The notes under the pieces: generated by a model
What the model was told of the DNA's origin: nothing
The model's input: the letters and a program-made list of their open reading frames with translations, nothing else
The model's database searches: none
Translations under genes and position numbers: made by a program
Shown: positions 19,765 through 60,000 of the stretch, piece after piece
Layout of the letters: every line of letters starts with the position of its first letter
How positions within the stretch are numbered: the first letter of the stretch is position 1
Assembly (NCBI RefSeq): GCF_964204645.1
Contig: NC_134030.1
Span: forward strand, 20,839,110-20,899,109
Length of the DNA: 60,000 nucleotides
From: Tubulanus polymorphus
Taxonomy: Eukaryota; Nemertea; Palaeonemertea; Tubulaniformes; Tubulanidae
Reading direction: 5' to 3'

Positions 19765-22700
19765 TCAAACCCGTTTATTTCTGGCCCGAATTGATTTGAT
19801 ATCAATAGTGAGGATGGTGTAAAGAAGTGGATTCAGTGACGAGTTGATCGGTAGGAAAAGTACCGCCAACCAAGCCGCCACTTGGTTCGGTATTTCTACT
19901 CGGAATACAGCGCAAAACTGAACGATAATTATCGGTAACCAGCAAAATAAATTACACAGATTTATCACTAAACTCCTACGTGCCAGAACCAATTCGGTAG
20001 GATCAGCTCTACCCGAGCCGGACCTGCTTCCAGATACGAGTCTATACATCTGTGCATACGTCATCATTATTGTAACAAGTACGACCGAGTTAAACGCGGC
20101 ATAAATTGAGAATGAATATTGCCAGGCGTGGACATTGATGGATAGTAAATTCATAGGTAAACAAACACCAGTTGTGCCGTAAAAATTATTTCCGAAATAA
20201 TAAGATGGCGAAAGTGGTAGCATTGAAATGATGCTTAAAGTGATCCAACATATACAACAAATACTGGACACAGAAATCGTAGATGTAATTGGGTTTCGAG
20301 AAAATGGATCGACGATATTTGAGTATCTCTGACGGGTTAGAATGAGGAGAAAAATCAAGGATCCTTCGCACGAAAGCGTCACTATAATCCCAGCGAGTCG
20401 ACACAATGAACTACCCGTCCAACTTTCAGAATATAGAAAATAAACTCCTTTATAGACGTAATCGGCTCCTGCGATCAGAAACAGATAAATCGACATCAGA
20501 AAATCGCAAGTGGCAATATTAATGATGAGGATATCAGAGGATGTGTTACGTGATTCAGAGGATGAAATGCGTAACGCTTGAACGCGAAGTAAAATTACGA
20601 TGATGTTCGCAAAAAAGCTGAATGAAGCGATCGCCCAAATGATTGCTCTAAGAACAGTGTTACCCATCAGGTCGGAACAAGATGAAAATTGGTCGGCTTC
20701 CGGGAGACACTGGTCAACACTCGAAACCATGCAACAAAATTTGTACGCGTCAGAAGCCAAAGAACTCAATAATGTAACACTGTCAAAAACGTTTCTTTGT
20801 ACGGATATGACTTTTGAATTTTTGGTTAGATCCATAATTCTTAGCTTTGTTAATCCGGCAAATGCGTGTGTTGAAATATGTCTGATTTTGTTATTGCTGA
20901 TATTTAGAGACTCTAAAGCGGATAAACCACTGAACACATTTCCACTGAGTAACGACAAGGAAAGTCCGTGAAGATCGAGATCGCTTAGTGAATTTAAACC
21001 TTGAAAACTGCCTTCTTCCAAATTTGTTAAAGGATTTCCAAAAATGATGAGAATTTCCAAACTAGACAAACCGGTGAATGTATTCGCGGACAATGATATT
21101 AAGCGGTTATATGTAAGATCTAATGTATGTAGATTATGCAGGTTTGAGAACGAGTTTGGAACAATATAAGATAAATTGTTACGTGAAATATTGAGGAGAT
21201 GTAGATAGAGGTAAGAAGAAAACGTGGACTCATTGAATACAAGTCGATTATCTGATAATATCAGAACACGAGTTGATGCCGAGAAAAGATCATTAATTTC
21301 TACTAAACCAGCATCATCGCAATAAATGAAATGACCTTGACATTTACAATATTTTGGACACGAAACGTCACAGTAGGACTCGTCATCAGTGGTATGTTTA
21401 CAATTTACAACACCATCGCAAACTTCAGATTGAGGTATACATCGGTTTTCCTGGCCACATTTGAACATGCCGGGACATGATAAAGTCTCGCAGTTTCGCT
21501 CGTCTTCTGAATTAGGACAATCTGATCGACCATCGCACACCTGTCCCATCGGTATACAGTAAGATGCTGGACATTTCACAGTACCAGCAGGACATATGAA
21601 ATCAGTACAACCTTGTATATGTTCGAGCCTTCTACATACCGGGTAACCAATCGACATCCTTTCTAAAATACATCTATGACGTCTAGAATAACAATGAGGA
21701 GAATCGAAAGAACATCTTTGTTCATCAGATTCTGTACAAAGATTTGTAAAGTTAGTCGTACAGTAGTTATCATTATTACAGTGAACAGTAGGATTCACTG
21801 TAACATTCGATGTTAAAAGTTCATCTTCTTCGAGGCTTCCGCTACAATCTACAACACCATCTCGATACAATAGAGAACTGATACATTCACCGTTGTTACA
21901 CAGAAACCCGTTGCAAAGTTGCGGAGCACATCCCCACTCATCGGAGCCGTCCTTACAGCTAACGATTCCATCACATCGGTACGATCTATCCACACATTGT
22001 CCACTAGTACAACGGTATTTTTGGTGCAAACACAGTGGATGAAAACACAAGTTTTCATCCGAGCCATCGACACAATCCGGTTCAAAGTCGCAGATACCAC
22101 TTATAGATGTAACCCGTCCATCCGAACAGTGGAACTGACTTAGTAAGTTTAAACCCGAACAATCGAGTTCATCTTCACCGTGTTGACAGTCGTTTCTGGT
22201 ATCACATACGCGATGGTCACTGATACATCTTTGATCGTTACATTTAAATTGCCACGATTTACAACCGCTTATAGAAGCCAACTCTTCATCAGTTACATTA
22301 TAGGAACATAGCACGGAATGAACGTTGTTCGTCTGATTATTCCACGGTTTTATCGACCATTTTAATGACTCGATAAAAGTGATTTCATCCCTTGTCAAAA
22401 CTGGTTCGATCACTTTAAACATTTTCCTAGCATCCATAGTCAGTATAGCGCCATATTGATGTTTAAAACAAAAAGCGTCCATTAATGCTTTTATTTCATT
22501 TTCCACATGGAAAGTTACAATACCTATTTCAGCGTGAAGGTCACGACACATTTTCGTAGCGCTTCGAATATCCAAACTTCGATTGTTGTTCCAATCTGTG
22601 AGAATTTGACAACATTTGCCGTCCACATTTTGCCAGCCTCTTTTACAGGTCGAGTTGTTGGATGTATTGGGATTTCGAGCACTTTCATATCCAGTTAGAA

Positions 22701-23052
22701 ATGCGATATCGTTATGAGTATCAGTTATTTCTATGATACTCGTTGTATTTTGATTTCTTATTGTCGAATTATCCATGCGCTCTGAATCGACGTGAATTCT
22801 ATCCGATTCGCAAATAAAAGTTGTTCGAGTCTCCTCGATTTGACACGGGAATCGAACCCAGTTCGCTGATCCTCGTGGATTATTCAGTATCATCGCCGTA
22901 CACGGCATATTGACGTCATTTATCGGCTGTTTTCGTAGAGGAGATATCAACCCTTGAATAACTTCTGGTATGGTTTCGTTTATCATAGCAGGTTTAAACC
23001 ACTCTGCGTAGCTCAATGGTTTCCCATCAGTCCATGAGTGATACCCATCATT
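19765..23052 (-). CDS. Receptor A exon 3 (lectin, LDLa, LRR and 7TM)
   Basis: The acceptor AAACAG at 23053-23058 is followed by NDGYHSWTDGKPLSYAEW, continuing lectin domain 1. One uninterrupted 1,095-codon exon then carries everything through the 7TM region and stops after IRARNKRV. Such a long intronless exon may reflect an ancient retrocopy fused to upstream ectodomain exons; this is an inference. Confidence 0.92.
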   Translation of the reverse strand, partial: NDGYHSWTDGKPLSYAEWFKPAMINETIPEVIQGLISPLRKQPINDVNMPCTAMILNNPRGSANWVRFPCQIEETRTTFICESDRIHVDSERMDNSTIRNQNTTSIIEITDTHNDIAFLTGYESARNPNTSNNSTCKRGWQNVDGKCCQILTDWNNNRSLDIRSATKMCRDLHAEIGIVTFHVENEIKALMDAFCFKHQYGAILTMDARKMFKVIEPVLTRDEITFIESLKWSIKPWNNQTNNVHSVLCSYNVTDEELASISGCKSWQFKCNDQRCISDHRVCDTRNDCQHGEDELDCSGLNLLSQFHCSDGRVTSISGICDFEPDCVDGSDENLCFHPLCLHQKYRCTSGQCVDRSYRCDGIVSCKDGSDEWGCAPQLCNGFLCNNGECISSLLYRDGVVDCSGSLEEDELLTSNVTVNPTVHCNNDNYCTTNFTNLCTESDEQRCSFDSPHCYSRRHRCILERMSIGYPVCRRLEHIQGCTDFICPAGTVKCPASYCIPMGQVCDGRSDCPNSEDERNCETLSCPGMFKCGQENRCIPQSEVCDGVVNCKHTTDDESYCDVSCPKYCKCQGHFIYCDDAGLVEINDLFSASTRVLILSDNRLVFNESTFSSYLYLHLLNISRNNLSYIVPNSFSNLHNLHTLDLTYNRLISLSANTFTGLSSLEILIIFGNPLTNLEEGSFQGLNSLSDLDLHGLSLSLLSGNVFSGLSALESLNISNNKIRHISTHAFAGLTKLRIMDLTKNSKVISVQRNVFDSVTLLSSLASDAYKFCCMVSSVDQCLPEADQFSSCSDLMGNTVLRAIIWAIASFSFFANIIVILLRVQALRISSSESRNTSSDILIINIATCDFLMSIYLFLIAGADYVYKGVYFLYSESWTGSSLCRLAGIIVTLSCEGSLIFLLILTRQRYSNIVDPFSRNPITSTISVSSICCICWITLSIISMLPLSPSYYFGNNFYGTTGVCLPMNLLSINVHAWQYSFSIYAAFNSVVLVTIMMTYAQMYRLVSGSRSGSGRADPTELVLARRSLVINLCNLFCWLPIIIVQFCAVFRVEIPNQVAAWLAVLFLPINSSLNPLLYTILTIDIKSIRARNKRV

Positions 23053-26000
23053 CTGTTTAAAATATAAATCATTTTCATTCATCGACAGTAAAAATGGTTT
23101 TACCATTATTTTCATTATTAATTAATTGAAGTTAATCCGTTCATAATTGATTTATTGAGGTTAATCAGTTCAATTTATGACATTTGACTTGTAAGTGTGT
23201 TAAGTGTCTGAATGCCAATTTGATCTTTTTCAATATTTGGCATGAAAAAAAAGAATTCGAGAATTTTCAATTTTCTCACCACTATAAAAATTATCATAAG
23301 TCCTGTATAGAAGTTATATATACATAATATTTTGATGCCATAAAAATGACACATCAATTTGGAGTCTCTTATTTCAAATTCGATGTTGATTTTCTTTTTC
23401 ATTTGTCGAGAGTGGAAGTTACCTTGTATTTTAGCCCGATCATCATTATAAGCGCCTCCTGGGTATATCCCTTTCTAAGCAGTTTCGTGGCGAATAATCT
23501 TTTGACAGAAATCATTTCATCTTGTGAGTTGATACTGAGAAGATGTCCTCCGTATTTCTGTTGACAATACATTTCAGCGTTCTCCCAATTCAGACGTTCA
23601 TCTCTGATGTATTTGACGCAGGAAATTCCCGAATCTATAAATCCTGATTTACAGCCGATTTTATCAAACTGTTTTATTGGTAACGACTTTTCTAAATTGT
23701 ATTGTATTTGAAATGTGGGAACGCGATCCTTTATCTCAAATTGCAAATCATTGTCACTTAAACTATAAAATATATTTCCACGTTTAGCATAAGTTCCACA
23801 TATTGTAATTTGATGTTGGGCTTCGCTTTTTGGAATAGCAAATCCATTATCGTAAAGGTCACGTATCTGTTGCTTGAAAAGAATTGGGTCTTTGTCCAAT
23901 GAAGATAATTTACTGCACGGTAAAGTCTGAATAAATTTGATTATAAATCTGTAATATTGAATTCGATTATTCATTATCGGGTTTTCAAAGATATAATAAG
24001 AAGACTTCGAAGTATATCCCGCCGATCCCGGATAGTTCGGTGATTGTACGATTCCACATTCATCCCTATCCGGGAAAAATGAAACACCAAATTGAGATTG
24101 TGTAGGTTTTTTCTCTCCTTGACATTTACGACGTAGTTTAACTATCAATTCATCATTCCAGAATTGATATTTGTAGAACAATTTCAAAGTGTTTAATACG
24201 AAACTGTTATTGAGAAACTGATTTGATAAACTCATTTCCATGTCACATGATCTACTAGAGTATCGCGCTGGAAAACATGCATCAATTTGATATTCATATT
24301 CTGATAAAATACAAATATTTTCTAAAGGAAGGCGCCGGTTTTCAGGTGTAATCACCAGACAGTGTGACGTCATATTAATCTGATTTTCTCCTTCCCGTAA
24401 AACATACCCGTAACAATCAGTAGGATTGAATCTGAGATACCCAGATTTAGGTACATCATTAAAAGCGTATCCTACTACAGTAACCGTTCCTCCTGATGTA
24501 ATCAGACTGACGACCCTACGACCGTACCACTGACCAGGACAATACGGACCATAGCGTCTAGCTGTAAAACTACCACCATCATATATATAAAATCCAGCTC
24601 TCTCGCACGTCTCTGATAAAACTGTTAGTTTTAATCTATCCTCATAGATATCAACTTTCCGCTTGAATTCTAATGTATTTATACGATACGATAATTTTGT
24701 CTTCTTTGACGCCGGGAGGAGTTTGCTTGGAATCAAACTTGCGCTGGAGCCAGATATCTACAAAATATGAATAACTTACGAATAAAAGAACGATTTACAT
24801 TATTCTGCGTTTACGAAACGGATTATATTTGAAAGATACATTAATGCTTTCGTCTTCGACCACGGGCCAGTACACAAGCTGGCTGTTAAACAGCTACAAA
24901 ATAGTGAAAATAAGACTTTTTCCCTTCTTCTTAAACTAAACAAAAAGCGTTAATGTTTCTTTTTTTCGCATAAGAAATTAGATATCAATTTAGACGATGA
25001 GGTTTCTTTTTAATTGTTTTTTGAGATTTATTGCAACATCTTCATTTGATGCTAAATGAAAATTGATATCTCCTATTTCAATTAAGTTTCATCTTTTTAG
25101 TGTTATCTCGATTACGTTTTGGCTCATATGGCTCATATGATATTTTACATTTAATTTAATCATGTTTACTCACCCTGGGTTTGTGGACTTGTACGTCTTC
25201 TATAGAAATAGATTTCACTTCAAATTCTATCCTTACATTCGATTGTAAAACACCTGGTCTTATTAAAACGCACAGTATGACGAGAAAGCCTTCAGATTTA
25301 ACACTCAGTGATTCCAGGTAGTTGTAACCGAGTAAAATATCAGTTCCTACAACGCGTAACCCTTCTAGTTTATATACACCGATGACGTCACCGGATGTGC
25401 TGAGATCACGTGTCCAGTTGAAGACGACGTACTGTAACACCTGCACTGTGATAGACCAGCAGTGTAAGTGTTTTGATCGAGTTATTACGTGTAAACTGTT
25501 GTCATCGGGAATGAGCACTCCAGACTCGTTATTAGAGATTTGAATTAACGGATTAGAGACGTTCCAATCAGATATTCTATATACCTTAACTGATAGTTGT
25601 GATTTAAAGGATGATGGATGTGTATCATCAATAATGGCTTTGTCAGTTTTAGTATAGAATGATGATGGTGGATGTCCGGTTTGTTCTGGTATAACAGCAA
25701 TAGGTTCACTGATGTTCCATCCGTCGTAAATTTGAACAGTTGTCACTGAATGAGCGCCAGGAGGTAATCTGAAATCTATTTGTGTAAATGTCAAATTCAT
25801 CGCACAACCATTCGGGATCCCGATCCATTCCAAGTACAATTTACATTGACTTAAGATGATTGCGAATTTGTATCCTGCCGAAGTTTGTAATTTGTTTAAC
25901 ATTAAATTGTATTCTCTGCAGTTGTGAATGAATTTCAAATGGCTTCGTTCAAAACGATATATGACATAAACCCAACTACCCCGCGCACCATCGACGTTAC

Positions 26001-26364
26001 TTCTAAACATCAACGAGATCGAATCGTTACGGCGGATTTCATGTTTTCCTTCTCCGCAGAATCTGTTATCGGACTCACCGACGAGAAGGTAGTTATCACT
26101 ACAGAACATCGACGGCTCGATGTCGTAGTATAGTTTGATGTTGAAAGTTCCCGGTAAAGAGCTGTTGACGAACCAACGACATTCAACACCGCGCGTTAAC
26201 GACGGGTAATTCGGTGAAACGATGTAACCGGACGTAGAATCGAGTGGGTACCAAGTGTTGTTACAAGACGAACTGACCGTCACAGAGTCAGACAGATCAG
26301 CGTGTGCGATGTTAACTCGCCAGACGATCAGCGACGCTATAAACAGCGCTCTCAGTCGATCCAT
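19765..26364 (-). CDS. Receptor A: CUB / C-type lectin / LDLa / LRR / 7TM receptor (GRL101- and relaxin-receptor-like)
   Basis: Three exons (26364-25174, 24757-23423, 23052-19765) joined in phase 0 give 1,937 residues. Order: signal peptide 1-22; CUB 34-139; CUB-like 149-262 and about 290-390; CUB-like about 448-530; CUB 631-752; C-type lectin domain 766-923; second lectin domain 978-1091; LDLa modules at 1106, 1151, 1183, 1222 (degenerate), 1329 and 1368; LRRNT 1407; seven LRRs about 1435-1610; 7TM 1642-1924. TM2 has DFLMSIYLF and TM6 has CWLP, TM7 has NPLLY, and the TM3 and loop-2 cysteines are present, as in LGR-type class A receptors. The DRY motif reads QRY. I start at the ATG of MDRLRALF because it is the only one common to all copies; an in-frame ATG at 26376 exists only in A. 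It is a plasma-membrane receptor with unknown ligand. A lacks the ILKTR tail of the other copies and is the most divergent. Confidence 0.9.
23423..24757 (-). CDS. Receptor A exon 2 (CUB modules and first half of lectin domain 1)
   Basis: It runs from acceptor TTTTGTAG to donor AAG|GTAACT, 445 codons. It contains a CUB-like module (FYIYDGG, VVSLITSGG), a cysteine-rich linker, a CUB starting CGIVQSPNYPG, and the start of the lectin domain (LNWENAEMYCQQKYGGHLLSI, then ALIMMIGLKYK at the splice). The intron interrupts the lectin fold just after the conserved GL. Confidence 0.9.
25174..26364 (-). CDS. Receptor A exon 1 (signal peptide and three CUB-type modules)
   Basis: It ends at donor AGG|GTGAGT. 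CUB 1 has the usual SGYIVSPNYPS start and paired cysteines (Cys34/Cys62, Cys88/Cys103). Residues 149-262 form a second CUB-like module and differ strongly from the other copies. Residues 266-390 are a third one and are almost identical in all copies. Confidence 0.9.
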
Positions 26365-27894: not shown

Positions 27895-28085
27895 TTGTAT
27901 TCACCTCATGGGCTCGTATTTGAAGTTTGGGGGTGAATTGTAGCTTAGATCATCATCCCTGGTACAATATATATAAAAAGAATTATAAAAAGAATTCTTT
28001 ATATATATAGTACCAGGCATACTGGATGATCTAAGCTACAGTTCATCCCCAAACTTCAAATACGAGGCCCTGTGGTATTCACACG
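27895..28085. repeat. AT-centred palindrome in the A-B spacer
   Basis: The left arm at about 27898-27966 (ctcgtatttgaagtttgggg, ending ccctggtac) is mirrored by the right arm at about 28011-28084 (gtaccagg, ending ccccaaacttcaaatacgag). The centre is an AT-rich core of about 45 bp with 'aaagaattcttt'. Arms are about 70 bp and imperfect. Confidence 0.88.
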
Positions 28086-29923: not shown

Positions 29924-32900
29924 TCAGCGAGTTTTTAAAATCCGTTTATTTTTAGCCCGAATTGATTTAACATCGATAGTGAGGATGGTGTAAAGAAGTG
30001 GATTCAGTGACGAGTTGATCGGTAGGAAAAGTACCGCCAACCAAGCCGCCACTTGGTTCGGTATTTCTACTCGCAATACAGCGCAAAACTGAACGATGAT
30101 TATCGGTAACCAGCAAAATAAATTACACAGATTTATCACTAAACTCCTACGTGCCAGAATCAATTCGGTAGGATCAGCTCTACCCGAGCCGGACCTGCTT
30201 CCAGATACGAGTCTATACATCTGTGCATACGTCATCACTATTGTAGCAAGTACGACCGAGTTAAACACGGCAAATATAGCGAATGAATATTGCCAGGCGT
30301 GGACATTGATGGTCAGTAAATTCATAGGTAAACAAACACCGGTTGTGCCGTAAAAGTTATTACCGAAATAAGAAGATGACGATAGTGGTAGCATTGAAAT
30401 GATGCTTAAAATGATCCAACATATGCAACAAATACTGGACACAGAAATCGAAGATATAATTGGGCTTCCAGAAAATGGATCGACGATATTCGAGTATCTT
30501 TGACGGGTAAGCATGAGCAGAAAGGTCAGCGATCCCTCGCAAGATAGAGTCACTATAATCCCAGCGAGTCGACACGATGAACTATCCGTCCAACTTTCAG
30601 AATTTAAGAAGTAAACTCCTTTATAGACGTAATCGGCTCCAGCGATCATAAACAGATAAATCGACATCAGAAAATCGCAAGTGGCAATATTAATAATGAG
30701 GATATCAGAGGATGTATTACGTGATTCAGAGGATGAAATTCGAAACGCTTGAACGCGAAGTAAAATGACAATAATGTTTGCGAAAAAGCTGAATGAAGCG
30801 ATCGCCCAAATGATTGCTCTAAGAACAGTGTTACCCATCAGGTCGGAACAAGATGAAAATTGGTCGGCTTCAGGGAGACACTGGTCAACATTCGGAATCA
30901 TGCAACAAAATTTGTACGCGTCAGAAGCCAAGGTACTTATTAATGTAAGACTGTCAAAAACGTTTTTTTCTACGGATATGACTTTTGAATTTTTGGTTAG
31001 ATCCAGACTTTTAAGTTTTGTTAATCCGGCAAATGCGTTTGGTGAAATATAACTGATTCTGTTATTGCTGACATCTAACGACTCTAAAGCGGATAAACCA
31101 CTGAACACATTTCCAACGAGTAACGACAAGGAAAGTCCGTGAAGATCGAGATCGCTTAATGACTTTAAACCTAGAAAACTGCCTTCTTCTAAATATCTCA
31201 CTGGATTCCCAAAAATCAAGAGAATATTCAAACTGTTCAAACCGGCGAATGTATTCGCGGACAATGACATTAAGCGGTTATATGTAAGATCTAATGTATG
31301 TAGATTATGCAGGTTTGAGAACGAGTTTGGAACAATATAAGACAAATTGTTACGTGAAATATTAAGAAGGTGTAGATAGAGGTAAGAAGAAAACGTGGAC
31401 TCATTGAATACAACTCGGTTTTCTGATAAAATCAGAACTCGAGTTGATGCCGAGAACATATCTGTAATTTCTACCAAACCAGCATCATCGCAATCAATTA
31501 AATGACCTCGACATTTACAATTTTCAAGACACGTGACGTCACAGTAAGACTCGTCATCAGTGTTATGTTTACAATTTACAACATCATCACAAACTTCTGA
31601 TTGAGGTATACATCGGTTTTCCTGGCCACATTTGAACATGCCGGGACACGACAAAGTCTCGCAGTTTCGCTCGTCTTCTGAATTAGGACAATCGGATCGA
31701 CCATCGCACACCTGTCCCATCGGTATACAGTAAGATGCTGGACATTTTACAGTACCAGCTGGACATTTGAAATCAGTACAACCTTGTATATGTTCGAGCC
31801 TTCTACATACCGGGTAACCAATCGGCGTCCTTTCTAAAATACATCTATGACGTCTAGAATAACAATGAGGAGAATCGAAAGAACATCTTTGTTCATCAGA
31901 TTCTGTACAGAGATTTGTGAAATTAGTCGTGCAGTAGTTATCATTATTACAGTGAACTGTAGGATTCACTGTAACATTCGATGTTAAAAGTTCATCTTCT
32001 TCGAGGCTTCCGCTACAATCTACAACACCATCCCGATACAATACAGAACTGATACATTCACCGTTGTTACACAGAAACCCGTTGCATATTTGTGGACCGC
32101 ACTCCCGTTCGTCGGAACCGTCCTTGCAGCTAACGATTCCATCACATCGGTACGATCTATCTACACATTGACCACTAGTACAGCGGAATTGTTGGGGCAA
32201 ACACAGTGGATGAAAACACGATTTCTCATCCGAGCCATCGACACAATCCGCTTCAAAGTCACACAAACCACTTATTGATATAACCTGACCATCTGAACAG
32301 TGGAACTGACTTTGTAAGTTTAAACCAGAACAATCGAGTTCATCTTCACCGTGTTGACAGTCGTTTCTGGTATCACATACGCGATGGTCGCTGATACATC
32401 TTTGATCGTTACATTTAAACTGCCACGATTTACAACCGCTTATAGAATCCCACTCTTCACCAGTCTTATTATAGTAACATAGCACGGAATGAACGTCGTT
32501 TGTCTGATTATTCCATGGTTTTATCGACCATCTCAACGACTCGATAAAAGTGATTCCATTCCTTGTCAAAACTGGTTCGATCACTTGAAACATTTTCCTA
32601 GCATCCATAGTCAGTATAGCGCCATATTGATGTTTAAAACTAAACTCGTCAATTAATGCTTTTATTTCATTTTCCCTGCGCCTAGTAACAATAGCTATTT
32701 CAGCGTGAAGATCACGACACAATTTCGTAGCGCTTAGAATATCCAAACCTCGATTGTTGATCCAATCTGTGAACATTTTACAACATTTACCTTCGACATT
32801 TTGCCAACCTTTTTCACAGGTCGAGTTGTTGGTTGTATTTGGATTTTTAATACTTTCATTTCCAGTGAGAAATACGATATTGTTAAGAGTATCAGTTAGT

Positions 32901-33211
32901 TCTGTGATGCTCGTTGTATTTGTTGAATTATCCACGCGTTCTGAATCGATGTCAATTCTATCCGATTCACAAATAAAAGTTGTTCGAGTCTCCTCGATTT
33001 GACACGGGAATCGAACCCAGTTCGCTGATCCTCGTGGATTATTCAGTATCATCGCCGTACACGGCATATTGACGTCATTTATCGGTTGTTTTCGTAGAGG
33101 AGATATCAATCCTTGAATAACTTCTGGTATCGTTTCGTTTATCATTGCAGGTTTAAACCACTCTGTGTAGCTCAATGGTTTTCCATCAGTCCACGTGTAG
33201 AAACCATCATT
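29924..33211 (-). CDS. Receptor B exon 3
   Basis: 1,095 codons plus stop, acceptor TTTGAACAG. It differs from C by a small number of residues over the lectin, LDLa and LRR parts; from the LRRNT through the LRRs the two proteins look almost the same. Confidence 0.92.
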   Translation of the reverse strand, partial: NDGFYTWTDGKPLSYTEWFKPAMINETIPEVIQGLISPLRKQPINDVNMPCTAMILNNPRGSANWVRFPCQIEETRTTFICESDRIDIDSERVDNSTNTTSITELTDTLNNIVFLTGNESIKNPNTTNNSTCEKGWQNVEGKCCKMFTDWINNRGLDILSATKLCRDLHAEIAIVTRRRENEIKALIDEFSFKHQYGAILTMDARKMFQVIEPVLTRNGITFIESLRWSIKPWNNQTNDVHSVLCYYNKTGEEWDSISGCKSWQFKCNDQRCISDHRVCDTRNDCQHGEDELDCSGLNLQSQFHCSDGQVISISGLCDFEADCVDGSDEKSCFHPLCLPQQFRCTSGQCVDRSYRCDGIVSCKDGSDERECGPQICNGFLCNNGECISSVLYRDGVVDCSGSLEEDELLTSNVTVNPTVHCNNDNYCTTNFTNLCTESDEQRCSFDSPHCYSRRHRCILERTPIGYPVCRRLEHIQGCTDFKCPAGTVKCPASYCIPMGQVCDGRSDCPNSEDERNCETLSCPGMFKCGQENRCIPQSEVCDDVVNCKHNTDDESYCDVTCLENCKCRGHLIDCDDAGLVEITDMFSASTRVLILSENRVVFNESTFSSYLYLHLLNISRNNLSYIVPNSFSNLHNLHTLDLTYNRLMSLSANTFAGLNSLNILLIFGNPVRYLEEGSFLGLKSLSDLDLHGLSLSLLVGNVFSGLSALESLDVSNNRISYISPNAFAGLTKLKSLDLTKNSKVISVEKNVFDSLTLISTLASDAYKFCCMIPNVDQCLPEADQFSSCSDLMGNTVLRAIIWAIASFSFFANIIVILLRVQAFRISSSESRNTSSDILIINIATCDFLMSIYLFMIAGADYVYKGVYFLNSESWTDSSSCRLAGIIVTLSCEGSLTFLLMLTRQRYSNIVDPFSGSPIISSISVSSICCICWIILSIISMLPLSSSSYFGNNFYGTTGVCLPMNLLTINVHAWQYSFAIFAVFNSVVLATIVMTYAQMYRLVSGSRSGSGRADPTELILARRSLVINLCNLFCWLPIIIVQFCAVLRVEIPNQVAAWLAVLFLPINSSLNPLLYTILTIDVKSIRAKNKRILKTR

Positions 33212-36200
33212 CTGTTCAAAAATAAAATCCAGATTCATCTATCAACTTCAAAAATGGCTGCAAAAACGGTTTTTAAGCATTTTTCTACTTTAATCATTGA
33301 CATTGTGTTTAGACTCGAATATTTTCAGTGCATATTTCACATCTTTTTCAAAATTCAGCTTCAAAATGAAGTTTTATTTATAATTGATATCTAGAATAAA
33401 GAATATTTGCATTCATCAAATTTTATGATTTACATGAATTGAGAGTCTAGTGATTCCAGGATAATCTAACTTTCTTATCCCATTTTGTCGAGTGTAAGTT
33501 ACCTTGAATTTTAGCCCGATCATCATTATAAGCGCCTCCTGGGTATATCCCTTTCTAAGCAGTTTCGTCGCGAATAATCTTTTGACAGAAATCATTTCAT
33601 CTTGTGAGTTGATACTGAGAAGATGTCCTCCGTATTTCTGTTGACAGTACATTTCAGCGTTCTCCCAATTCAGATGTTCATCTCTGATGTATTTGACGCA
33701 GGAAATTCCCGAATCTAGAAATCCTGATTTACAGTGGATTTTATCAAACTGTTTTATTGGTAACGACTTTTCTAAATTGTATTGTATTTGAAATGTGGGA
33801 ACGAGATCCTTTATCTCAAATTGCAAATTATTGTCACTTAAACTATAAAATATATTTCCACGTTCAGCATAAGTTCCACATATTTCAGTTTGATGTTGGG
33901 TTTCACTATGTGGAATCATTAATCCATTATCGTAATAGTCTTTCAACCGTTGTTTGAATAGAATTGGGTCTTTGTCTGAACTAGATAATTTACTGCACGG
34001 TAAAGTCTGAATAAATTTGATTATAAATCTGTAATATTGAATTCGATTATTTTCTATCGGGTTTTCAAAGCTATAATATAAAGATTCCGGAGCATGTCCC
34101 ACCGATCCCGGATAGTTCGGTGATTGTACGATTCCACATTCATCCCTATCCGGGAAATATGAAGAACCGAGAAATGGCGTTGGTTTTTTCGCTCCTTGAC
34201 ATTTACGACGTAGTTTAACTATCAATTCTCTTTGCCAGAATTGATATTTGTAGAACAATTTCAAAGTGTTCAATACAAAACTGTTATTGAGAAACTGATT
34301 TGATAAACTCATTTGCCTGTCACATGTTCTACTCGTGTATCGCGCAGGAAAACATGCGTCAATTTGATATTCATATTCTGATAATATATAAATGTTTTCT
34401 AAAGGAAGGCGCCGGTTTTCAGGTGTAATCACGAGACAGTGTGACGTCATGTTGATCTGATTTTCTCCTGCCTGTAAAACATATCCATCACAGTCAGAAG
34501 GATTGAATCTGAGATACCCAGCCGTGTCTCCTATTAATGATTCTATGCGAGTTCTTAGTTCTGGCACCAAATTATCCCAGTTATAAGCGTATCCTACTAC
34601 AGTAACCGGTCCTCCTGATGTTATCAGACTGACGACGCGACGACCGTATTTATTACCAGGACAATACGGACCATAGCGTCTAGCTATAAAATTACCACCA
34701 TCATATATATAAAATCCAGCTCTCTCGCACGTCTCTGATAGAACTGTTAGTTTTAATCTATCATCCTCATAGATATCAACTTTCTGTTTAAATTGAAATG
34801 TGTTTATGCCATACGTTAATGTTGTCATCTTTGATGTCGGGAATAGTTTGCTCGGAGACAAACTAGCACCGGAGCCAGATACCTACAAAATATGAATATT
34901 GATCATTAATCGAATAATTTAGATTCTTTTGTTAGATTTTACATTATTCTTAAGTCAAACACTTTATGTATTTATCCGACAAAATAATTGACGAATTTCC
35001 TTGTTCTTAATTACACTTTTGAATACATTAAAGGGATGTTCCGTATCTTATATTTTCGCACAAGAAATTTAACGGTTTTACAAAAAAAGTTATTTTTTCA
35101 AAGATTTATTTAAACATCAGTACTTTTACTAATATTCATGTTTAATGAAAATAAATATTTCTCAATTAAACAATTCTACATAATTTTGTTAAGCAATAGC
35201 TGAGAAATGATTTTACTAATTGTGGACTTGCACGTCTTCTGTTGTAAGAAAAATTCAACTTCAAACCCATTTTTATTTCTATGGTTCATTCTTACGTATT
35301 ATTTAGCTGAGGCTGAGTAGTTATTTCACTCACCCTTCGTTTGTGAACTTGTACGTCTCCTGTGGATAAAGATTTCACTTCAAATTCAATGTTTACATTC
35401 GATTGTAAAACACCTGGTCTTATTAAAACGCACAGTATGACGAGAAAGCCGTCAGATTTAACACTCAGTGATTCCAGGTAGTTGTAACCGAGTAAAATAT
35501 CAGTTCCTACAACGCGTAACCCTTCTAGTTTATATACACCGATGACGTCACCGGATGTGCTGAGATCACGTGTCCAGTTGAAGACGACGTACTGTAACAC
35601 CTGCACTGTGATAGACCAGCAGTGTAAGTGTTTTGATCGAGTTATTACGTGTAAACTGTTGTCATCAGGAATGAGCACTCCAGACTCGTTATTAGAGATT
35701 TGAATTAACGGATTAGAGACGTTCCAATCAGATATTCTATACACCTGAACTGATAGTTGTGATTTAAATGACAAACGGCGTTTTTTTGAGAAAATAATGG
35801 CTTTGTCAGTTTTAGTATAAAATGATGACGGTGGATGTCCGGTTTGTTCTGGTATAACAGCTATTGGTTCACTACTGTTCCATCCGTCGTAAATTTGAAC
35901 GGTTGTCGCTGAATCAGCGCCAGGATATAATCTGAAATCTATTTGTCTAAACGTCAAATTCATAGCGAAACCATCCGGGATCTCGATCCATTCCAAATAC
36001 AATTTACATCGCATTAAATATATTACGAATTTGTATCCTATCGATGTTTGTAATTTGTTTATACTGTACATAGCTTTCATGCAGTTGTGAATCAATTTCA
36101 AATTGTTTCGTTCGAAACGATATGTGACATAAACCCGACTACCCCGCGCACCATCGACGTTACTTCTAAACATCAACGAGATCGAATCGTTACGGCGGAT

Positions 36201-37100: not shown

Positions 37101-37101
37101 A

Positions 37102-37250
<149 letters not shown>

Positions 37251-45600: not shown

Positions 45601-45927
45601 TTCATGTTTTCCTTCACCGCAGAATCTGTTATCGGACTCACCGACGAGAAGGTAGTTATCACTACAGAATATCGACGGCTCGATGTCGTAGTATAGTTTG
45701 ATGTTGAAAGTTCCCGGTAAAGAGCTGTTGACGAACCAACGACATTCAACACCGCGCGTAAACGACGGGTAATTCGGTGAAACGATGTAACCGGACGTAG
45801 AATCGACGGGGTACCAAGTGTTGTTACAAGACGAACTGACCGTCACAGAGTCAGACAGATCAGCGTGTGCGATGTTAACTCGCCAGACGATCAGCGACGA
45901 TATAAACAGCGCTCTCAGTCGATCCAT
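39369..45927 (-). CDS. Receptor C: CUB / C-type lectin / LDLa / LRR / 7TM receptor
   Basis: Exons 45927-44740, 44282-42948 and 42656-39369 give 1,936 residues, with all modules of the family and no disruption. Exon 3 is close to B. Unusual changes in C are an extra cysteine in the second LDLa module (ISCLCDFEADC instead of ISGLCDFEADC), which could upset disulphide pairing, and Leu for Pro in the fifth LDLa (KCLASYC). The tail reads AKSKRILKTR. C has Val in ELVLARRSL and Lys in AQMYKLV where B and D have Ile and Arg. Confidence 0.9.
42948..44282 (-). CDS. Receptor C exon 2
   Basis: 445 codons. Variable segments read PGHKYGRN, NEYLNNSFVFNALKLFHKY and SGSGTEHQTNICG; the scaffold between them matches the other copies. 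The tail of the exon ends GLKFK at donor AAG|GTAACT. Confidence 0.9.
44740..45927 (-). CDS. Receptor C exon 1
   Basis: 396 codons. The CUB-2 module shares CIIYKQRINILPTSTG with D but differs at other variable sites, for example FLQIDF where A and D have FTQIDF, and SPRTRSVTT where D has SPGAHSTTT. Confidence 0.9.
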
Positions 45928-49982: not shown

Positions 49983-52900
49983 TCAGCGAGTTTTTAAAAT
50001 CCGTTTATTTTTAGCCCGAATTGATTTAACATCGATAGTGAGGATGGTGTAAAGAAGTGGATTCAGTGACGAGTTGATCGGTAGGAAAAGTACCGCCAAC
50101 CAAGCCGCCACTTGGTTCGGTATTTCTACTCGCAATACAGCGCAAAACTGAACGATAATTATCGGTAACCAGCAACATAAATTACACAGATTTATCACTA
50201 AACTCCTACGTGCCAGAATCAATTCGGTAGGATCAGCTCTACCCGAGCCGGACCTGCTTCCAGATACGAGTCTATACATCTGTGCATACGTCATCACTAT
50301 TGTAGCAAGTACGACCGAGTTAAACACGGCAAATATAGCGAATGAATATTGCCAGGCGTGGACATTGATGGTCAGTAAATTCATAGGTAAACAAACACCG
50401 GTTGTGCCGTAAAAGTTATTACCGAAATAAGAAGATGACGATAGCGGTAGCATTGAAATGGTGCTTAAAATGATCCAACATATGCAACAAATACTGGACA
50501 CAGAAATCGAAGATATAATTGGGCTTCCAGAAAATGGGTCCACGATATTCGAGTATCTTTGACGGGTAAGCATGAGCAGAAAGGTCAACGATCCCTCACA
50601 AGATAGAGTCACTATAATCCCAGCGAGTCGACACAATGAACTATCTGTCCAACTTTCAGAATTTAAGAAGTAAACTCCTTTATAGACGTAATCGGCTCCA
50701 GCGATCAAAAACAAATAAATCGACATCAGAAAATCGCAAGTGGCAATATTAATAATGAGGATATCAGAGGATGTATTACGTGATACAGAGGATGAAATTC
50801 GAAGTGCTTGAACGCGAATTAAAATGACAATTATGTTCGCAACAAAGCTGAATGAAGCGATCGCCCAAATGATTGCTCTAAGAACAGTGTTACCCATCAG
50901 GTCGGAACAAGAAGAAAATTGGTCGGCTTTCGGGAGACACTGGTCAACATTCGGAATCATGCAACAAAATTTGTACGCGTCAGAAGCTAAAGTACTTAAT
51001 AATGTAAGACTGTAAAAAACGTTTTTTTCTACGGATATGACTTTTGAATTTGTGGTTAGATCCAGACTTTTAAGTTTTGTTAATCCGGCAAATGCGTTTG
51101 GTGAAATATAACTGATTCTGTTATTGCTGACATCTAACGACTCTAAAGCGGATAAACCACTGAACACATTTCCACCAAGTAACGACAAGAAAAGTCCGTG
51201 AAGATCGAGATCGCTTAATGACTTTAAACCTAGAAAACTGCCTTCTTCTAAATATCTAACTGGATTCCCAAAAATAAAGAGAATTTCCAAACTGTTCAAA
51301 CCGGCGAATGTATTCGCGGACAATGACATTAAGCGGTTATATGTAAGATCTAATGTGTGTAGATTAACCAGGTTTGAGAACGAGTTTGGAACAATATAAG
51401 ACAAATTGTTACGTGAAATATTAAGGAAATGTAAATAGAGGTAAGAAGAAAATGTGGACTCATTGAATACAACTCGGTTTCCTGATAATATCAGAACACG
51501 AGTTGATGCCGAGAAAAGATCAGTAATTTCTATTAAACCAGCATCATCGCAATCAATTAAATGACCTCGACATTTACAATATTTTGGACACGTGACGTCA
51601 CAGTAGGACTCGTCATCAGTGGTGTGTTTACAATTTACAACACCATCGCAAACCTCAGATTGAGGTATACATCGGTTTTCCTGGCCACATTTGAACATGC
51701 CGGGACACGTCAAAGTCTCGCAGTTTCGCTCATCTTCTGAATTAGGACAATCGGATCGACCATCGCACACTTGTCCCATCGGTATACAGTAAGATGCTGG
51801 ACATTTTACAGTGCCAGCTGGACATATGAAATAAGAGCAACCTTGTATATGTTCGAGCCTTCTACATACCGGGTAACCAATCGGCATCCTTTCTAAAATG
51901 CATCTATGACGTCTAGAATAACAATGAGGAGAATCGAAAGAACATCTTTGTTCATCAGATTCTGTGCAGAGATTTGTAAAGTTAGTCGTACAGTAGTTAT
52001 CATTATTACAGTGAACTGTAGGATTCACTGTAACATTCGGTGTTAAAAGTTCATCTTCTTCGAGGCTTCCGCTACAATCTACAACACCATCCCGATACAA
52101 TAGAGAACTGATACATTCACCGTTGTTACACAGAAACCCATTGCATATTTGTGGACCGCACGCCCGTTCGTCGGAACCGTCCTTACAGTTAACGATTCCA
52201 TTACATCGGTACGATCTATCTACACATTGACCACTAGTACAGCGGAATTGTTGCGGCGAACACAGTGGATGAAAACACGATTTCTCATCCGAGCCATCGA
52301 CACAATCCGCTTCAAAGTCACACAAACCACTTATTGATATAACCTGACCATCTAAACAGTGGAACTGACTTTGTAAGTTTAAACCAGAACAATCGAGTTC
52401 ATCTTCACCGTGTTGACAGTCGTTTCTCGTATCACATACGCGATGGTCGCTGATACATCTTTGATCGTTACATTTAAACTGCCACGATTTACAACCGCTT
52501 ATAGAAGCCAACTCTTCACCAGTTACATTATAGGAACATAGCACGGAATGAACGTCGTTTGTTTGATTATTCCATGGTTTTATCGACCATCTCAACGACT
52601 CGATAAAAGTGATTCCATCCCTTGTCAAAACTGGTTCGATCACTTGAAACATTTTCCTAGCATCCATAGTCAGTATAGCGCCATATTGATGTTTAAAACT
52701 AAACTCGTCAATTAATGCTTTTATTTCATTTTCCCTGTGCCTAGTAACAATAGCTATTTCAGCGTGAAGATCACGACACAATTTCGTAGCCCTTAGAATA
52801 TCCAAACCTCGATTATTGTTCCAATCTGTGAACATTTTACAACATTTACCTTCGACATTTTGCCAACCTTTTTCACAGGTCGAGTTGTTGGTTGTATTTG

Positions 52901-53282
52901 GATTTTTAATACTTTCATTTCCAGTGAGAAATACGATATTGTTAAGAGTATCAGTTAGTTCTGTGATGCTCGTTGTATTTGTTGAATTATCCACGCGTTC
53001 TGAATCGATGTCAATTCTATCCGATTCACAAATAAAAGTTGTTCGAGTCTCCTCGATTTGACACGGGAATCGAACCCAGTTCGCTGATCCTCGTGGATTA
53101 TTCAGTATCATCGCCGTACACGGCATATTGACGTCATTTATCGGTTGTTTTCGTAGAGGAGATATCAATCCTTGAATAACTTCTGGTATCGTTTCGTTTA
53201 TCATAGCAGGTTTAAACCACTCTGTGTAGCTCAATGGTTTCCCATCAGTCCAAGTGTAGAAACCATCATTGTCATTCATTGG
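49983..53282 (-). CDS. Receptor D exon 3 with a shifted acceptor
   Basis: 1,099 codons plus stop. The intron end differs from B and C immediately upstream of the coding part, so the acceptor CAG falls 12 bp further upstream than in the other copies. Confidence 0.88.
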   Translation of the reverse strand, partial: PMNDNDGFYTWTDGKPLSYTEWFKPAMINETIPEVIQGLISPLRKQPINDVNMPCTAMILNNPRGSANWVRFPCQIEETRTTFICESDRIDIDSERVDNSTNTTSITELTDTLNNIVFLTGNESIKNPNTTNNSTCEKGWQNVEGKCCKMFTDWNNNRGLDILRATKLCRDLHAEIAIVTRHRENEIKALIDEFSFKHQYGAILTMDARKMFQVIEPVLTRDGITFIESLRWSIKPWNNQTNDVHSVLCSYNVTGEELASISGCKSWQFKCNDQRCISDHRVCDTRNDCQHGEDELDCSGLNLQSQFHCLDGQVISISGLCDFEADCVDGSDEKSCFHPLCSPQQFRCTSGQCVDRSYRCNGIVNCKDGSDERACGPQICNGFLCNNGECISSLLYRDGVVDCSGSLEEDELLTPNVTVNPTVHCNNDNYCTTNFTNLCTESDEQRCSFDSPHCYSRRHRCILERMPIGYPVCRRLEHIQGCSYFICPAGTVKCPASYCIPMGQVCDGRSDCPNSEDERNCETLTCPGMFKCGQENRCIPQSEVCDGVVNCKHTTDDESYCDVTCPKYCKCRGHLIDCDDAGLIEITDLFSASTRVLILSGNRVVFNESTFSSYLYLHFLNISRNNLSYIVPNSFSNLVNLHTLDLTYNRLMSLSANTFAGLNSLEILFIFGNPVRYLEEGSFLGLKSLSDLDLHGLFLSLLGGNVFSGLSALESLDVSNNRISYISPNAFAGLTKLKSLDLTTNSKVISVEKNVFYSLTLLSTLASDAYKFCCMIPNVDQCLPKADQFSSCSDLMGNTVLRAIIWAIASFSFVANIIVILIRVQALRISSSVSRNTSSDILIINIATCDFLMSIYLFLIAGADYVYKGVYFLNSESWTDSSLCRLAGIIVTLSCEGSLTFLLMLTRQRYSNIVDPFSGSPIISSISVSSICCICWIILSTISMLPLSSSSYFGNNFYGTTGVCLPMNLLTINVHAWQYSFAIFAVFNSVVLATIVMTYAQMYRLVSGSRSGSGRADPTELILARRSLVINLCNLCCWLPIIIVQFCAVLRVEIPNQVAAWLAVLFLPINSSLNPLLYTILTIDVKSIRAKNKRILKTR

Positions 53283-56200
53283 CTGCAAAATCGATTTTTA
53301 AGCATTTTTCTACTTTAATCATTGAAATTGTGTTTAGAATCGAATATTTTCAGTGCATATTTTACATCTTTTTCAAAATTCAGCTTAAAGATTAAAATAT
53401 GCTTATAAATAAAAATTGTCAATTTTCGACCATCATTATATTCGTTATACTTTTTATGAATTAAATTTTATTTATAATTGACATGTAGAATAAAGAATAT
53501 TTGCATTCATCAAATTTTACGATTTACATGAATTGGGAGTCTAGTGATTCGAGGATAATCTAACTTTCTTATTCCATTTCGTCGAGTGTAAGTTACCTTG
53601 TATTTTAGCCCGATCATCATTATAAGCGCCTCCTGTGTATATCCCTTTCTAAGCAGTTTCGCGGCGAATAATCTTTTGACAGAAATCATTTCATCTTGTG
53701 AGTTGATACTGAGAAGATGTCCTCCGTATTTCTGTTGACAGTACATTTCAGCGTTCTCCCAATTCAGACGTTCATCTTTGATGTATTTGACGCAGGATAT
53801 TCCCGAATCTAGAAATCCTGATTTACAGCCGATTTCATCAAACTGTTTTATTGGTAACGACTTTTCTAAATTGTATTGTATTTCAAATGTGGGAATGCGT
53901 TCCTTTATCTCAAAATACAAATCATTGTCCCATAAACTATAAAATACACTTCCACGTTTAGCCATAGTTCCACATATTTTAGTTAAATGTTCAGTGTCGC
54001 TTCCTGAAATAACTACTCCATTATCGTAAAGGTCATGTATCTGTTGCTTGAATAGAATTGGGTCTTTGTCTGATCTAGATAATTTACTGCACGGTAAAGT
54101 CTGAATAAATTTGATTATAAATCTGTAATATTGAATTCGATCATTTTCAATCGGATTTTCGAAGTTATAATAAGATGATTTCGAAGTATATCCCGCAAAG
54201 CCCGGATAGTTCGGTGATTGTACGATTCCACATTCATCCCTATCCGGCAAATATGAAGAACCGGGAAATTGTGTAGGGTTTTTTACTCCTTGACATTTAC
54301 GACGTAGTTTAACTATTAATTCATCATTCCAGAATTGATATTTGTAGAACAATTTCAAAGTGTTTAATACAAAACTGTTATTGAGAAACTGATTTGATAA
54401 ACTCATTTGCCTGTCACACTTTCTTCTCGAGTATCGCGCTGGAAAACATGCGTCAATTTGATACTCATGTTCTGATAATATATAAATGTTTTCTAAAGGA
54501 AGGCGCCGGTTTTCAGGTGTAATCACCAGACAGTGTGACGTCATGTTGATCTGATTTTCTCCTTCCCGTAAAACATACCCGTAACAATCAGCAGGACTGA
54601 ATCTAAGATACCCAGAGTTAGGTACATCACTATAAGCGTACCCTACTACAGTAACCGGTCCTCCTGATGTAATCAGACTGACGACGTTACGATCGTATTG
54701 ATAACCAGTACAATACGGACCATAGCGTCTAGCTGTAAAATTACCACCATCATATATATAAAATCCAGCTCTCTCGCACGTCTCTGATAAAACTGTTAGT
54801 TTCAATCCATCCTCATAGATATCAACTTTCCGTTTAAATTCTAATGTATTTATGCCATACGTTAATGCTGTCATCTTTGATGTCGGGAAGAGTTCGCTCG
54901 GAATCAAACTTGCACCGGAGCCAAATATCTACAAAATATGAATATTGATCATTAATCGAATAATTTACATTGTTTTGTTAGATACATTGTTTTACATTAT
55001 TCTTAAATCATACACTTTATGTATTTATCCGACAAAATAATTGACGAATTTTCCTTGTTCTTAATTACACTTTTGTTCCGTATCTTATATTTTCGCACAA
55101 GAAATTTAAAGGTTGTACAAAAAACTTATATTTTAAAGAATTATTTAAACATCAGTACTTGCACCAATATTCATGTTTAACAAAAATTCATATTTCTCAT
55201 TTTAACAATGTCAATTTAATTTTGTAAAACAAAAGCTGAGAAATAATTTTACTACATCTGTGGACTTGCACGCCTTCTATTGAAAGAGAAATCTTTAAAC
55301 TCATTTTTATTTCTATGGTTCATTCTTACGTATTATTTAGCTGAGGCTGAGTAGTTATTTTACTCACCCTTCGTTTGTGAACTTGTACGTCTCCTGTGGA
55401 TAAAGATTTCACTTCAAATTCTATCCTTACATTCGATTGTAAAACACCTGGTCTTATTAAAACGCACAGTATGACGAGAAAGCCGTCAGATTTAACACTC
55501 AGTGATTCCAGGTAGTTGTAACCGAGTAAAATATCAGTTCCTACAACGCGTAACCCTTCTAGTTTATATACACCAATGATGTCATCGGATGTGCTGAGAT
55601 CACGTGTCCAGTTGAAGACGACGTACTGTAACACCTGCACTGTGATAGACCAGCAGTGTAAGTGTTTTGATCGAGTTATTACGTGTAAACTGTTGTCATC
55701 AGGAATGAGCACTCCAGACTCGTTATTAGAGATTTGAATTAACGGATTAGAGACGTTCCAATCAGATATTCTATACACCTGAACTGATAGTTGTGATTTA
55801 AAGGACAGTAGATGTGTATCGATAATGGCTTTGTAAGTTTTTGTGTAAAATGATGATGGTGGATGTCCGGTTTGTTCTGGTATAACAGCTATAGGTTCAC
55901 TGGTGATGTTCCATCCGTCGTAAATTTGAACAGTTGTCGTTGAATGAGCGCCAGGAGATAATCTGAAATCTATTTGTGTAAACGTCAAATTCATAGCGAA
56001 ACCATCCGGGATCTCGATCCATTCCAAATATAATATACATCGTTTTAAATATATTGCGAATTTGTATCCTGTCGAAGTTGGTAATATGTTTATTCTTTGT
56101 TTGTATATTATGCAGTTATGAATAAACTTCAAATTGTTTCGTTCATAACGATATATGATATAAACCCGACTACCCCGCGCACCATCGACGTTACTTCTAA

Positions 56201-56558
56201 ACATCAACGAGATCGAATCGTTACGGCGGATTTCATGTTTTCCTTCACCGCAGAATCTGTTATCGAACTCACCGACGAGAAGGTAGTTATCACTACAGAA
56301 TATCGACGGCTCGATGTCGTAGTATAGTTTGATGTTGAAAGTTCCCGGTAAAGAGCTGTTGACGAACCAACGACATTCAACACCGCGCGTAAACGACGGG
56401 TAATTCGGTGAAACGATGTAACCGGACGTAGAATCGACGGGGTACCAAGTGTTGTTACAAGGCGAACTGACCGTCACGGAGTCAGACAGATCAGCGTGTG
56501 CGATGTTAACTCGCCAGACGATCAGCGACGATATAAACAGCGCTCTCAGTCGATCCAT
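49983..56558 (-). CDS. Receptor D: CUB / C-type lectin / LDLa / LRR / 7TM receptor
   Basis: Exons 56558-55368, 54928-53597 and 53282-49983 give 1,940 residues with the family's full module order and no disruption. The start of exon 3 is remodelled: the usual acceptor segment is replaced and a new acceptor, GATTTTGCAG, adds four residues (PMND) before NDGFYTW inside lectin domain 1. Other changes include CNLCCWLP in TM6, where the others have CNLFCWLP, and CLPKADQF before TM1. The tail is identical to that of B. Confidence 0.9.
53597..54928 (-). CDS. Receptor D exon 2
   Basis: 444 codons. Variable segments read CTGYQYDRN, KNPTQFPGSSYLPD and SGSDTEHLTKICG. Confidence 0.9.
55368..56558 (-). CDS. 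Receptor D exon 1
   Basis: 397 codons. Its CUB-2 module is close to C but has one extra codon in GWNITSEP and its own residues at several variable sites. SSPCNN replaces SSSCNN at the start of CUB 1. Confidence 0.9.
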
Positions 56559-56849: not shown

Positions 56850-57300
56850 TTCGTAAGTTCACTGAAAAGATGTCTGATACCACATGTTTATGTACATTTT
56901 TTAATAAAAAAAAAATGTCTCAGTTGAAGACCTGAACACATGTGAAGTGTGGACGATCAGTTTTTGAAAGTGTGCTGATAAAATGTCTAATGTCTGGTGT
57001 TTGTAGTTCATTTTCAATTAAAAATGTCTCAGGTGAAGCACTGGACACATGTGAAGTGTGGACGATCAGTTTTTGAAAGTGTGCTGATAAAATGTCTAAT
57101 ATCTGGTGTTTGTAGTTCATTTTCAATTAAAAATGTCTCAGGTGAAGCACTGGACACATGTGAAGTGTGGACGATCAGTTTTTGAAAGTGTGCTGATAAA
57201 ATGTCTAATATCTGGTGTTTGTAGTTCATTTTCAATTAAAAATGTTTCAGGTGAAGCACTGAACACATGTTAAGTGTGGATGATCAGTTTTTGAAATTGC
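56850..57300 (-). repeat. 109-bp minisatellite upstream of receptor D, about 4 units
   Basis: Units with 'acacatgt' at about 56938, 57047, 57156 and 57265, the middle ones nearly identical. Confidence 0.94.
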
Positions 57301-59157: not shown

Positions 59158-59964
59158 GGATTTTGTATGTACTAAATTACTGAATGTCTCCGTGAGCTAA
59201 GTATTGTCTTTATGTGTGGCCTGGACGATTCTACTGTTTTGATCTTAAAATAGGAATTGACCCTGTTATCGATTTGATTGGTAAATTCCTCGTCCCTTAC
59301 AGACCCACCACACCTGCCGGGAGCGAAACAGGGGGTTTAATATTGAAATTGGAAGTACAGATATAGTTGTGTGATCGGCGGTCGAGTTTACAACAGTTTG
59401 TTTAAATCGAAGTACATTATTGGGAAATTTGGTTCCGGGTTATCCAAACAATATTCCATTGGTTAGCCTACCAGTTAAAGCAATAAACACGTGCATGTTT
59501 TTAATCGATTCTTGTGTATGCAGCCGGGAGGTCGTTCAGATATTCGAGTTCTGAGGAGTTTGAACGTATGATTGTGGTAAAAAATATAGTTCGTGTTGAA
59601 CGAATATTCGACATCAAGTAAGCATGTGTATAAGATCGATAACGGAATCTGCGACTCAGGAAAGTAGCTGAATTTCAAAAAAAAAATTTCTGTTCGGAGA
59701 AGACAGAAAGACCAACCACGCAGAGCGGTAGATTTGAAACCTGATTTCCTAAGCCACGAGAGAATGATAAATCTCCGACCTAGGCACAAAACTAAATATT
59801 CGTTTGATGCGTCGAAAACACTATCGTAGGTTCAAACTTGAAACTGAAATAAGGTATGATGATTTTATCAGTCTCCAACTGTTTCCAAAAATAGTTTTCC
59901 ATGAATATAGCGGCTGAAGGCGCTCCTAGCGTGTATCCAAAGTTTCTATCGACTGATAAATGTT

Positions 59965-60000
59965 TCAGCGAGTTTTTAAAATCCGTTTATTTTTAGCCCG
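59965..60000 (-). CDS. Receptor E, 3' end only (cut by the window edge)
   Basis: The last 36 bases encode the C-terminal residues of another receptor (ending NKRILKTR and TGA). They are identical in sequence to the ends of B and D, and the 3' flank matches too. The rest lies beyond the window, so the array has at least five members. Confidence 0.9.
   Translation of the reverse strand, partial: RAKNKRILKTR

Follow-up and report, generated by a model that had tools for sequence, protein, structure and literature searches.

GRL101-type receptors with CUB and lectin modules: a tandemly expanded family in Tubulanus polymorphus and its possible role in recognition

Why would a nemertean genome hold a tandem row of giant receptors that join CUB, lectin, LDLa and leucine-rich-repeat (LRR) modules to a seven-transmembrane (7TM) domain, and what might these receptors recognize? 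The question is raised by a 60,000-nucleotide stretch of DNA from the palaeonemertean Tubulanus polymorphus (the window, C6:20839110-20899109, in an assembly of 267.8 Mb and 77 contigs; coordinates are counted in the window unless a contig is named). Large receptor repertoires reveal what an animal must distinguish. Our reading of the sequence indicates that the genes are real and functional-looking and that the family is much larger than first noted; its function we infer. We favor the explanation that these are members of a family of GRL101-type (type C2) LRR-bearing G-protein-coupled receptors (GPCRs) that is specific to this lineage and has expanded in tandem, and that probably acts as a recognition repertoire.

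The receptor genes and their modules

Stop-to-stop reading of the window gave three long minus-strand open reading frames per copy, four times over. They form four complete three-exon genes, in tandem on the minus strand within 19765-56558, whose products have 1937, 1953, 1936 and 1940 residues (copies 1-4; Table 1). All introns of the four genes are GT-AG and of phase 0, and the spliced frames contain no internal stop. The original prediction, of four intact tandem receptors of about 1,940 residues with matching splice sites and part of a fifth, is thereby borne out. The fifth copy is seen in the window as its C-terminus, RAKNKRILKTR and a stop, inside a 1.97-kb stretch that is 98.2% identical to 28000-29959. 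Every exon 1 opens, a few codons past a stop, with a hydrophobic leader that is signal-like by eye; its hydropathy peaks at 2.1-2.3 over 11 residues and stays under the threshold over 19 residues. That exons 1 and 2 might belong to a separate upstream gene was considered and rejected, because intron 2 splits lectin domain 1, because an in-frame TAG lies in the acceptor directly before exon 2 and the first invariant methionine of exon 2 is residue 129, and because a database model, P0054, crosses the same exon 2/3 junction.

From the N-terminus onward, the joined protein consists of a CUB domain, about 640 residues without a recognized domain, C-type lectin domains 1 and 2, six LDLa modules, about seven LRRs, the hinge of the LRR-containing GPCRs (LGRs) and the 7TM domain. 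Pfam and profile matches confirm the predicted CUB-lectin-LDLa-LRR-7TM order. On the whole joined protein, Pfam found LDLa six times, together with LRR_8 and a 7tm_1 match that covers positions 10-260 of the 260-position profile; at E<=1 it listed neither CUB nor Lectin_C. The number of LDLa modules is thus as predicted, with four canonical and two irregular by regular expression. The seven LRRs stand as a count by eye, with LRR_8 found by Pfam, whereas the regular expression matched one. A 19-residue hydropathy scan of the 7TM part flagged six segments, not seven.

With exon 1 alone (copies 4 and 1) the CUB domain rose above the Pfam cut-off; at E<=1 the domain was recovered from 15/17 family members (best 1.6e-6), and a 17-sequence CUB profile matches cubilin (2e-9) and MASP chains. 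The plural "CUB modules" of the prediction reduces to one firm domain, since the possible second shows an SPNYPG motif and weak profile matches only. Five N-terminal segments downstream of CUB1, compared with a 7-sequence CUB seed, gave probabilities of 0.1-5.4%. In a deeper alignment only residues 622-785 (4.1 vs 1.0) and 140-265 (2.2 vs 0.8) slightly exceeded their own shuffles as CUB; the former match CUB1 itself at 31% over 20 columns. No convincing Pfam family was found for residues 140-785, where exon 2 of the family members matched only the start of the lectin domain, and AlphaFold2 models of exons 1 and 2 built from the four window rows were unusable (mean pLDDT 30.0 and 29.1). Lectin domain 1, cut by intron 2, passes Pfam once its parts are joined (7e-7). 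The second predicted lectin domain is divergent and has no Pfam match, but a six-sequence profile (two window copies, four relatives) matches C-type lectin chains in the PDB, with a best value of 2e-14 and, among the 60 of 88 matches listed, an NKG2-D construct at 8e-5. We also observed in exon 1, within the supposedly extracellular region, a moderately hydrophobic segment at residues 350-379 of copy 4 and its equivalents (Kyte-Doolittle peak 1.69).

The proteins are best read as GRL101-type (type C2) LGRs, in the C1/C2 naming as used in the available parts of PMC4079206 and PMC11863921. The LGR-type 7TM that had been predicted is upheld by the LRR_8 and 7tm_1 matches, by a hinge of the FSSCSDLM type in 20/20 sequences (14 exact, 6 with one change) and by RXFP1, the closest solved protein over the LRR-7TM part (2e-76, ranked below four LRP2 chains). 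CWLP and NPxxY are each found in 19/20 copies, locus L002 being truncated. In a midpoint-rooted 7TM tree of 41 rows, the copies, which sit on a long branch (1.68), clustered with GRL101-like rows of lophotrochozoans at 80/91, and crustacean GRL101-like rows joined LGR5/TSHR/LHCGR-like rows at 71/78. A signature between the LDLa modules, C-x2-[DE]..C-[RK]..H-[LIM]-x2-C, which we defined after viewing the sequences and did not take from the literature, occurs in 4/4 window copies and in 18/133 database proteins, all 18 with NPxxY; it missed six other LGR-like proteins, including P0060.

The size of the family and its relatives

The array of four genes and a partial fifth stands within the window, but its extent had been understated, as the family is genome-wide with more than 200 loci per motif. 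Exact degenerate motifs for the 7TM, lectin 1 and CUB parts occur at 207, 220 and 268 places in the assembly, counts that include pseudogenes and recent segmental copies and, for CUB, possibly lone exons or other genes; reversed-pattern controls gave 0. Places are known for the first 100 matches of each motif search. Counted by hand, two regions, C6 17.9-22.2 Mb (73) and C9 2.27-5.18 Mb (64), hold at least 137 of the 207 7TM motifs, and the window array accounts for seven, on the minus strand. On C4 and C5, where the places are complete, 8 of 10 loci have the three motifs in order by hand check, as at C5 8617605 / 8615025 / 8612029. Among the best 42 of 776 candidates from an exon-3 search (identity 77-100%), 41 lie on C6 at 17.9-22.1 Mb and one on C32; 41 are free of stops, and the single TGA is by position the terminal stop of copy 1 itself.

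We fetched 26 loci, chosen for spread and not at random (20 on C6, two on C9, and one each on C4, C5, C8 and C22). Exon 3 was matched in all of them and exons 1 and 2 in 25 (not in L009). Our script scored 16 as complete and open, and removal of L002, which has no TM7, leaves 15/26 complete and open, or 19/30 with the four window genes. In L026, exon 1 is cut by the fetched stretch and exon 3 is broken as well. In the subcluster L001-L009, 8/9 sampled copies have frameshifts, stops or missing parts, which suggests birth-and-death turnover there. Retrocopies were considered as a source of the copies and rejected because introns are retained.

The nearest database protein is P0054, from T. polymorphus itself (62% identity over 73% of exon 3), a truncated model of 689 residues that starts MTIGLKWK-NDGYYTWTDGK, at the same exon 2/3 junction. 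Searches of a set of 5.8 billion proteins, which between them admitted lengths of 604-3395 residues, returned this one model from the species and nothing else above 42% identity, and residues 1-990 as a protein query found zero matches at E<=0.01 among 3,826 candidates. The family therefore looks nearly unannotated in this set, which suggests that whole families can escape annotation.

The original prediction had held that the full module order might be undescribed. That no longer holds. Of 30 database proteins that combine LDLa, LRR and 7tm_1, a hand count gives six with Lectin_C, five with CUB, four with both, and three with the same order as the window copies, namely P0060 of Argopecten irradians (its CUB from a separate scan), P0001 of Haliotis rufescens and P0003 of Solemya velum; the coral protein P0009 has both domains in a different order. 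The three same-order proteins, all database predictions, differ from the window copies in keeping QPD and WHD in the lectin and D or E in the TM3 motif, and in their longer C-terminal tails, which are kinase-like by eye. P0001 and P0003 share the inter-LDLa signature with the window copies, in contrast to which they carry additional ApeC and F5/8 C domains. ApeC (the apextrin C-terminal domain) stands at the N-terminus of both, at residues 6-207 of the abalone protein and 67-274 of the Solemya protein; this domain is linked elsewhere to bacterial wall binding. As a separate observation, the tails of the mollusc and coral GRL101-like receptors P0001, P0003, P0009, P0060, P0061 and P0067 resemble degenerate protein-kinase lobes by eye, P0009 and P0067 having weak Pfam kinase matches below the cut-off; the window copies have no such tail.

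RXFP1, a type C1 LGR, resembles the window copies in its LRR, hinge and 7TM parts; unlike them it has one LDLa and neither CUB nor lectin, and shark RXFP1 keeps the acidic TM3 residue. The predicted kinship with snail GRL101 is sustained. The copies combine the LRR, hinge and 7TM with multiple LDLa modules, as in type C2. Compared by description only, Lymnaea GRL101 also has an LDLa array, LRRs and an LGR 7TM, but with twelve LDLa and six LRR, and the available part of PMC8286064 mentions no CUB or lectin in it. The closest published system is SudRes2 of Biomphalaria sudanica, described in the accessible text of PMC12297450 as a schistosome-resistance-associated region of 440 kb that holds 12 GRL101-like genes, ten of them with the full domain set. 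Like the T. polymorphus family, it packs LGRs of the GRL101-like kind, bearing C-type lectin, LDLa, LRR and 7TM, densely together and was poorly annotated before hand curation; it differs in having 12 genes rather than more than 200 loci, and the word "CUB" is absent from the main text. Lectin-bearing clusters of this type were thus already published. The same text deems the N-terminal lectin unique to its snail genes, whereas scallop, abalone, clam and Lineus proteins also carry one. A survey of nemertean neuropeptide GPCRs excluded LRR GPCRs, according to the part of PMC8557429 available. In the literature searched, coverage of which left out most subscription papers and bioRxiv, we found no paper on the combination of CUB, lectin, LDLa, LRR and 7TM. 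What is new is the scale of the family, the module order being already in databases for scallop, abalone and Solemya. Among invertebrate repertoires, a mosaic LGR family expanded to more than 200 loci would be of a new kind; it would also carry the theme of the snail schistosome-resistance cluster into another phylum.

What the receptors might recognize

Comparison of 20 sequences (190 pairs, L002 and near-twins included) gave mean identities of 85% for the 7TM, 77% for lectin 1, 56% for lectin 2 and 50% for residues 621-785 (minimum 30%). Each of the 20 cysteines that copy 4 has in residues 1-785 is kept in at least 90% of the sequences. The pooled ratio of nonsynonymous to synonymous differences (pN/pS), from 25 non-independent pairs in four clades, was 0.20 for the 7TM (codon bootstrap 0.15-0.27), 0.26 for lectin 1 and 0.65 (0.52-0.80) for residues 621-785. 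The ectodomain is less constrained than the 7TM, with positive selection unproven. Constraint is also seen in the LDLa part. The best candidate sensor would be the stretch from CUB1 to lectin 1, in which the cysteines are fixed, together with lectin 2; lectin 1 is conserved and therefore argued not to be the variable sensor. In the LRR block, copies 2 and 3 differ by zero amino-acid changes and one silent change, and this mosaic similarity suggests gene conversion among copies.

In the explanation that we favor, the variable N-terminal region and lectin 2 would bind diverse outside ligands, be they other cells, microbes or prey, and the LDLa, LRR and hinge parts would pass the binding on to a single conserved 7TM, broadly in the manner of RXFP1, so that many inputs could yield one kind of G-protein signal. 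Within this explanation, immune or non-self sensing is our first choice, held tentatively, and environmental chemosensing a second and weaker one. The sensing of microbes or non-self cells, as originally proposed, is plausible. In favor of the explanation as a whole we count the two same-order mollusc relatives with ApeC (P0001, P0003) and the association of a lectin-GRL101 cluster with parasite resistance in a snail, as given in the accessible part of PMC12297450. A bolder form, which we regard as conceivable but doubtful, is a GPCR-based non-self repertoire of perhaps at least 100 intact giant receptors per worm (an extrapolation), each with its own disulfide-fixed variable N-terminus and all sharing one kind of 7TM with high basal activity. 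If true, it would do in this worm what expanded TLRs, NLRs or scavenger receptors do in other invertebrates.

Several results weigh against a recognition repertoire of signaling receptors. The acid of the D/ERY motif is replaced by Q or H in 20/20 copies and by Q in P0054, whereas D or E is found in the 36 other (non-Tubulanus) rows of the 7TM alignment; this loss may mean weak coupling. In class A receptors a neutralized D/ERY acid often raises basal activity. The long loop of lectin 1 reads QPINDVN..WVR or a near variant in 20/20 copies, without the canonical sugar motif, where five mollusc proteins (three of Haliotis) have QPD..WHD. As QPD and WHD are replaced, canonical calcium-dependent sugar binding by lectin 1 is unlikely, and the glycan binding that had been suggested is weakened for this domain. 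CUB1 lies distally too, and its mean identity equals that of the 7TM (85%). No pN/pS above 1 was found in the pooled data. In the window clade dN/dS reached 1.53 at residues 691-785, in regions picked after viewing the scan; the three other clades did not repeat this value (0.54, 0.64, 0.27), and positive selection on this segment was therefore dropped. Some clusters are mostly broken, with 1/9 sampled loci intact at C6 18.67-19.05 Mb (L001-L009). In SudRes2, the top variants lie in a neighboring non-GRL101 gene, according to the part of PMC12297450 available.

The loss of the D/ERY acid in all copies, and the fact that the window proteins and P0054 end shortly past TM7, could mean that many copies no longer signal and serve as decoy or adhesion receptors, with the 7TM mainly a membrane anchor. 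The strong constraint on the 7TM and the retention of CWLP and NPxxY in all but the truncated L002 argue otherwise, and we consider this very unlikely. It is also improbable, though somewhat less so, that assembly duplication and pseudogenes have inflated the copy number of a far smaller functional family. Such inflation would account for the C6 segment at 19.82 Mb with its twin at 20.06 Mb (motif spacings that differ by at most one base, and proteins 99.9% identical in the one fetched pair, L012/L018) and for the 11/26 fetched loci that are incomplete or broken, but the window copies differ by a synonymous divergence (dS) of 0.07-0.17, sampled clades are far more divergent, and loci are spread over at least eight contigs.

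Two other roles would keep the receptors functional. As chemosensory receptors, with one or a few per sensory cell, they could report on prey, mates or the habitat; this would fit a tandem birth-and-death family with a conserved 7TM, and a GRL101-like gene is reported as enriched in starfish sensory tentacles in the part of PMC6267866 available. Receptors for small odorants do not usually have so large an ectodomain with so many modules, and we think this role rather unlikely. The RXFP1-like LRR-7TM part would suit receptors for endogenous peptides of the insulin, relaxin or IGF kind, the expansion then being incidental; the accessible text of PMC8286064 puts single-copy GRL101 forward as an IGF receptor, but it also gives one GRL101 per ambulacrarian studied and so speaks against this role here. 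A family of more than 200 loci whose N-terminal region changes fast is a poor fit to a few hormones, and we give this alternative little credence. For the recognition repertoire that we favor, the loci, exon limits and motifs now known provide a basis for expression and ligand work.

Coordinates and neighboring sequences

Table 1. Exons of the receptor copies in the window
Feature	Position	Strand	Content
Copy 1 exon 1	25174..26364	-	signal-like start, CUB, region without recognized domain
Copy 1 exon 2	23423..24757	-	variable region without recognized domain, first half of lectin domain 1
Copy 1 exon 3	19765..23052	-	rest of lectin 1, lectin 2, LDLa x6, LRR, hinge, 7TM, stop
Copy 2 exon 1	35334..36527	-	
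Copy 2 exon 2	33503..34882	-	15-residue insertion vs other copies
Copy 2 exon 3	29924..33211	-	
Copy 3 exon 1	44740..45927	-	
Copy 3 exon 2	42948..44282	-	
Copy 3 exon 3	39369..42656	-	
Copy 4 exon 1	55368..56558	-	
Copy 4 exon 2	53597..54928	-	
Copy 4 exon 3	49983..53282	-	
Fifth copy, last 11 codons and stop	59965..60000	-	rest beyond window; exon 3 at G000:C6:20899077-20902373

Upstream of each of the four copies lies a minisatellite of 109-114 bp (26703-27340, 36867-37104, 46249-46822 and 56911-57296), which may promote unequal exchange; a related array, inverted, occurs outside the receptor array at 12708-13043. A 77-bp minisatellite forms three arrays (5286-6535, 9716-10543 and 13472-13794) whose units look mutually inverted. 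On the plus strand, 6491-9702 contains exon-like frames of what we take to be an ectonucleotide pyrophosphatase/phosphodiesterase-like protein.

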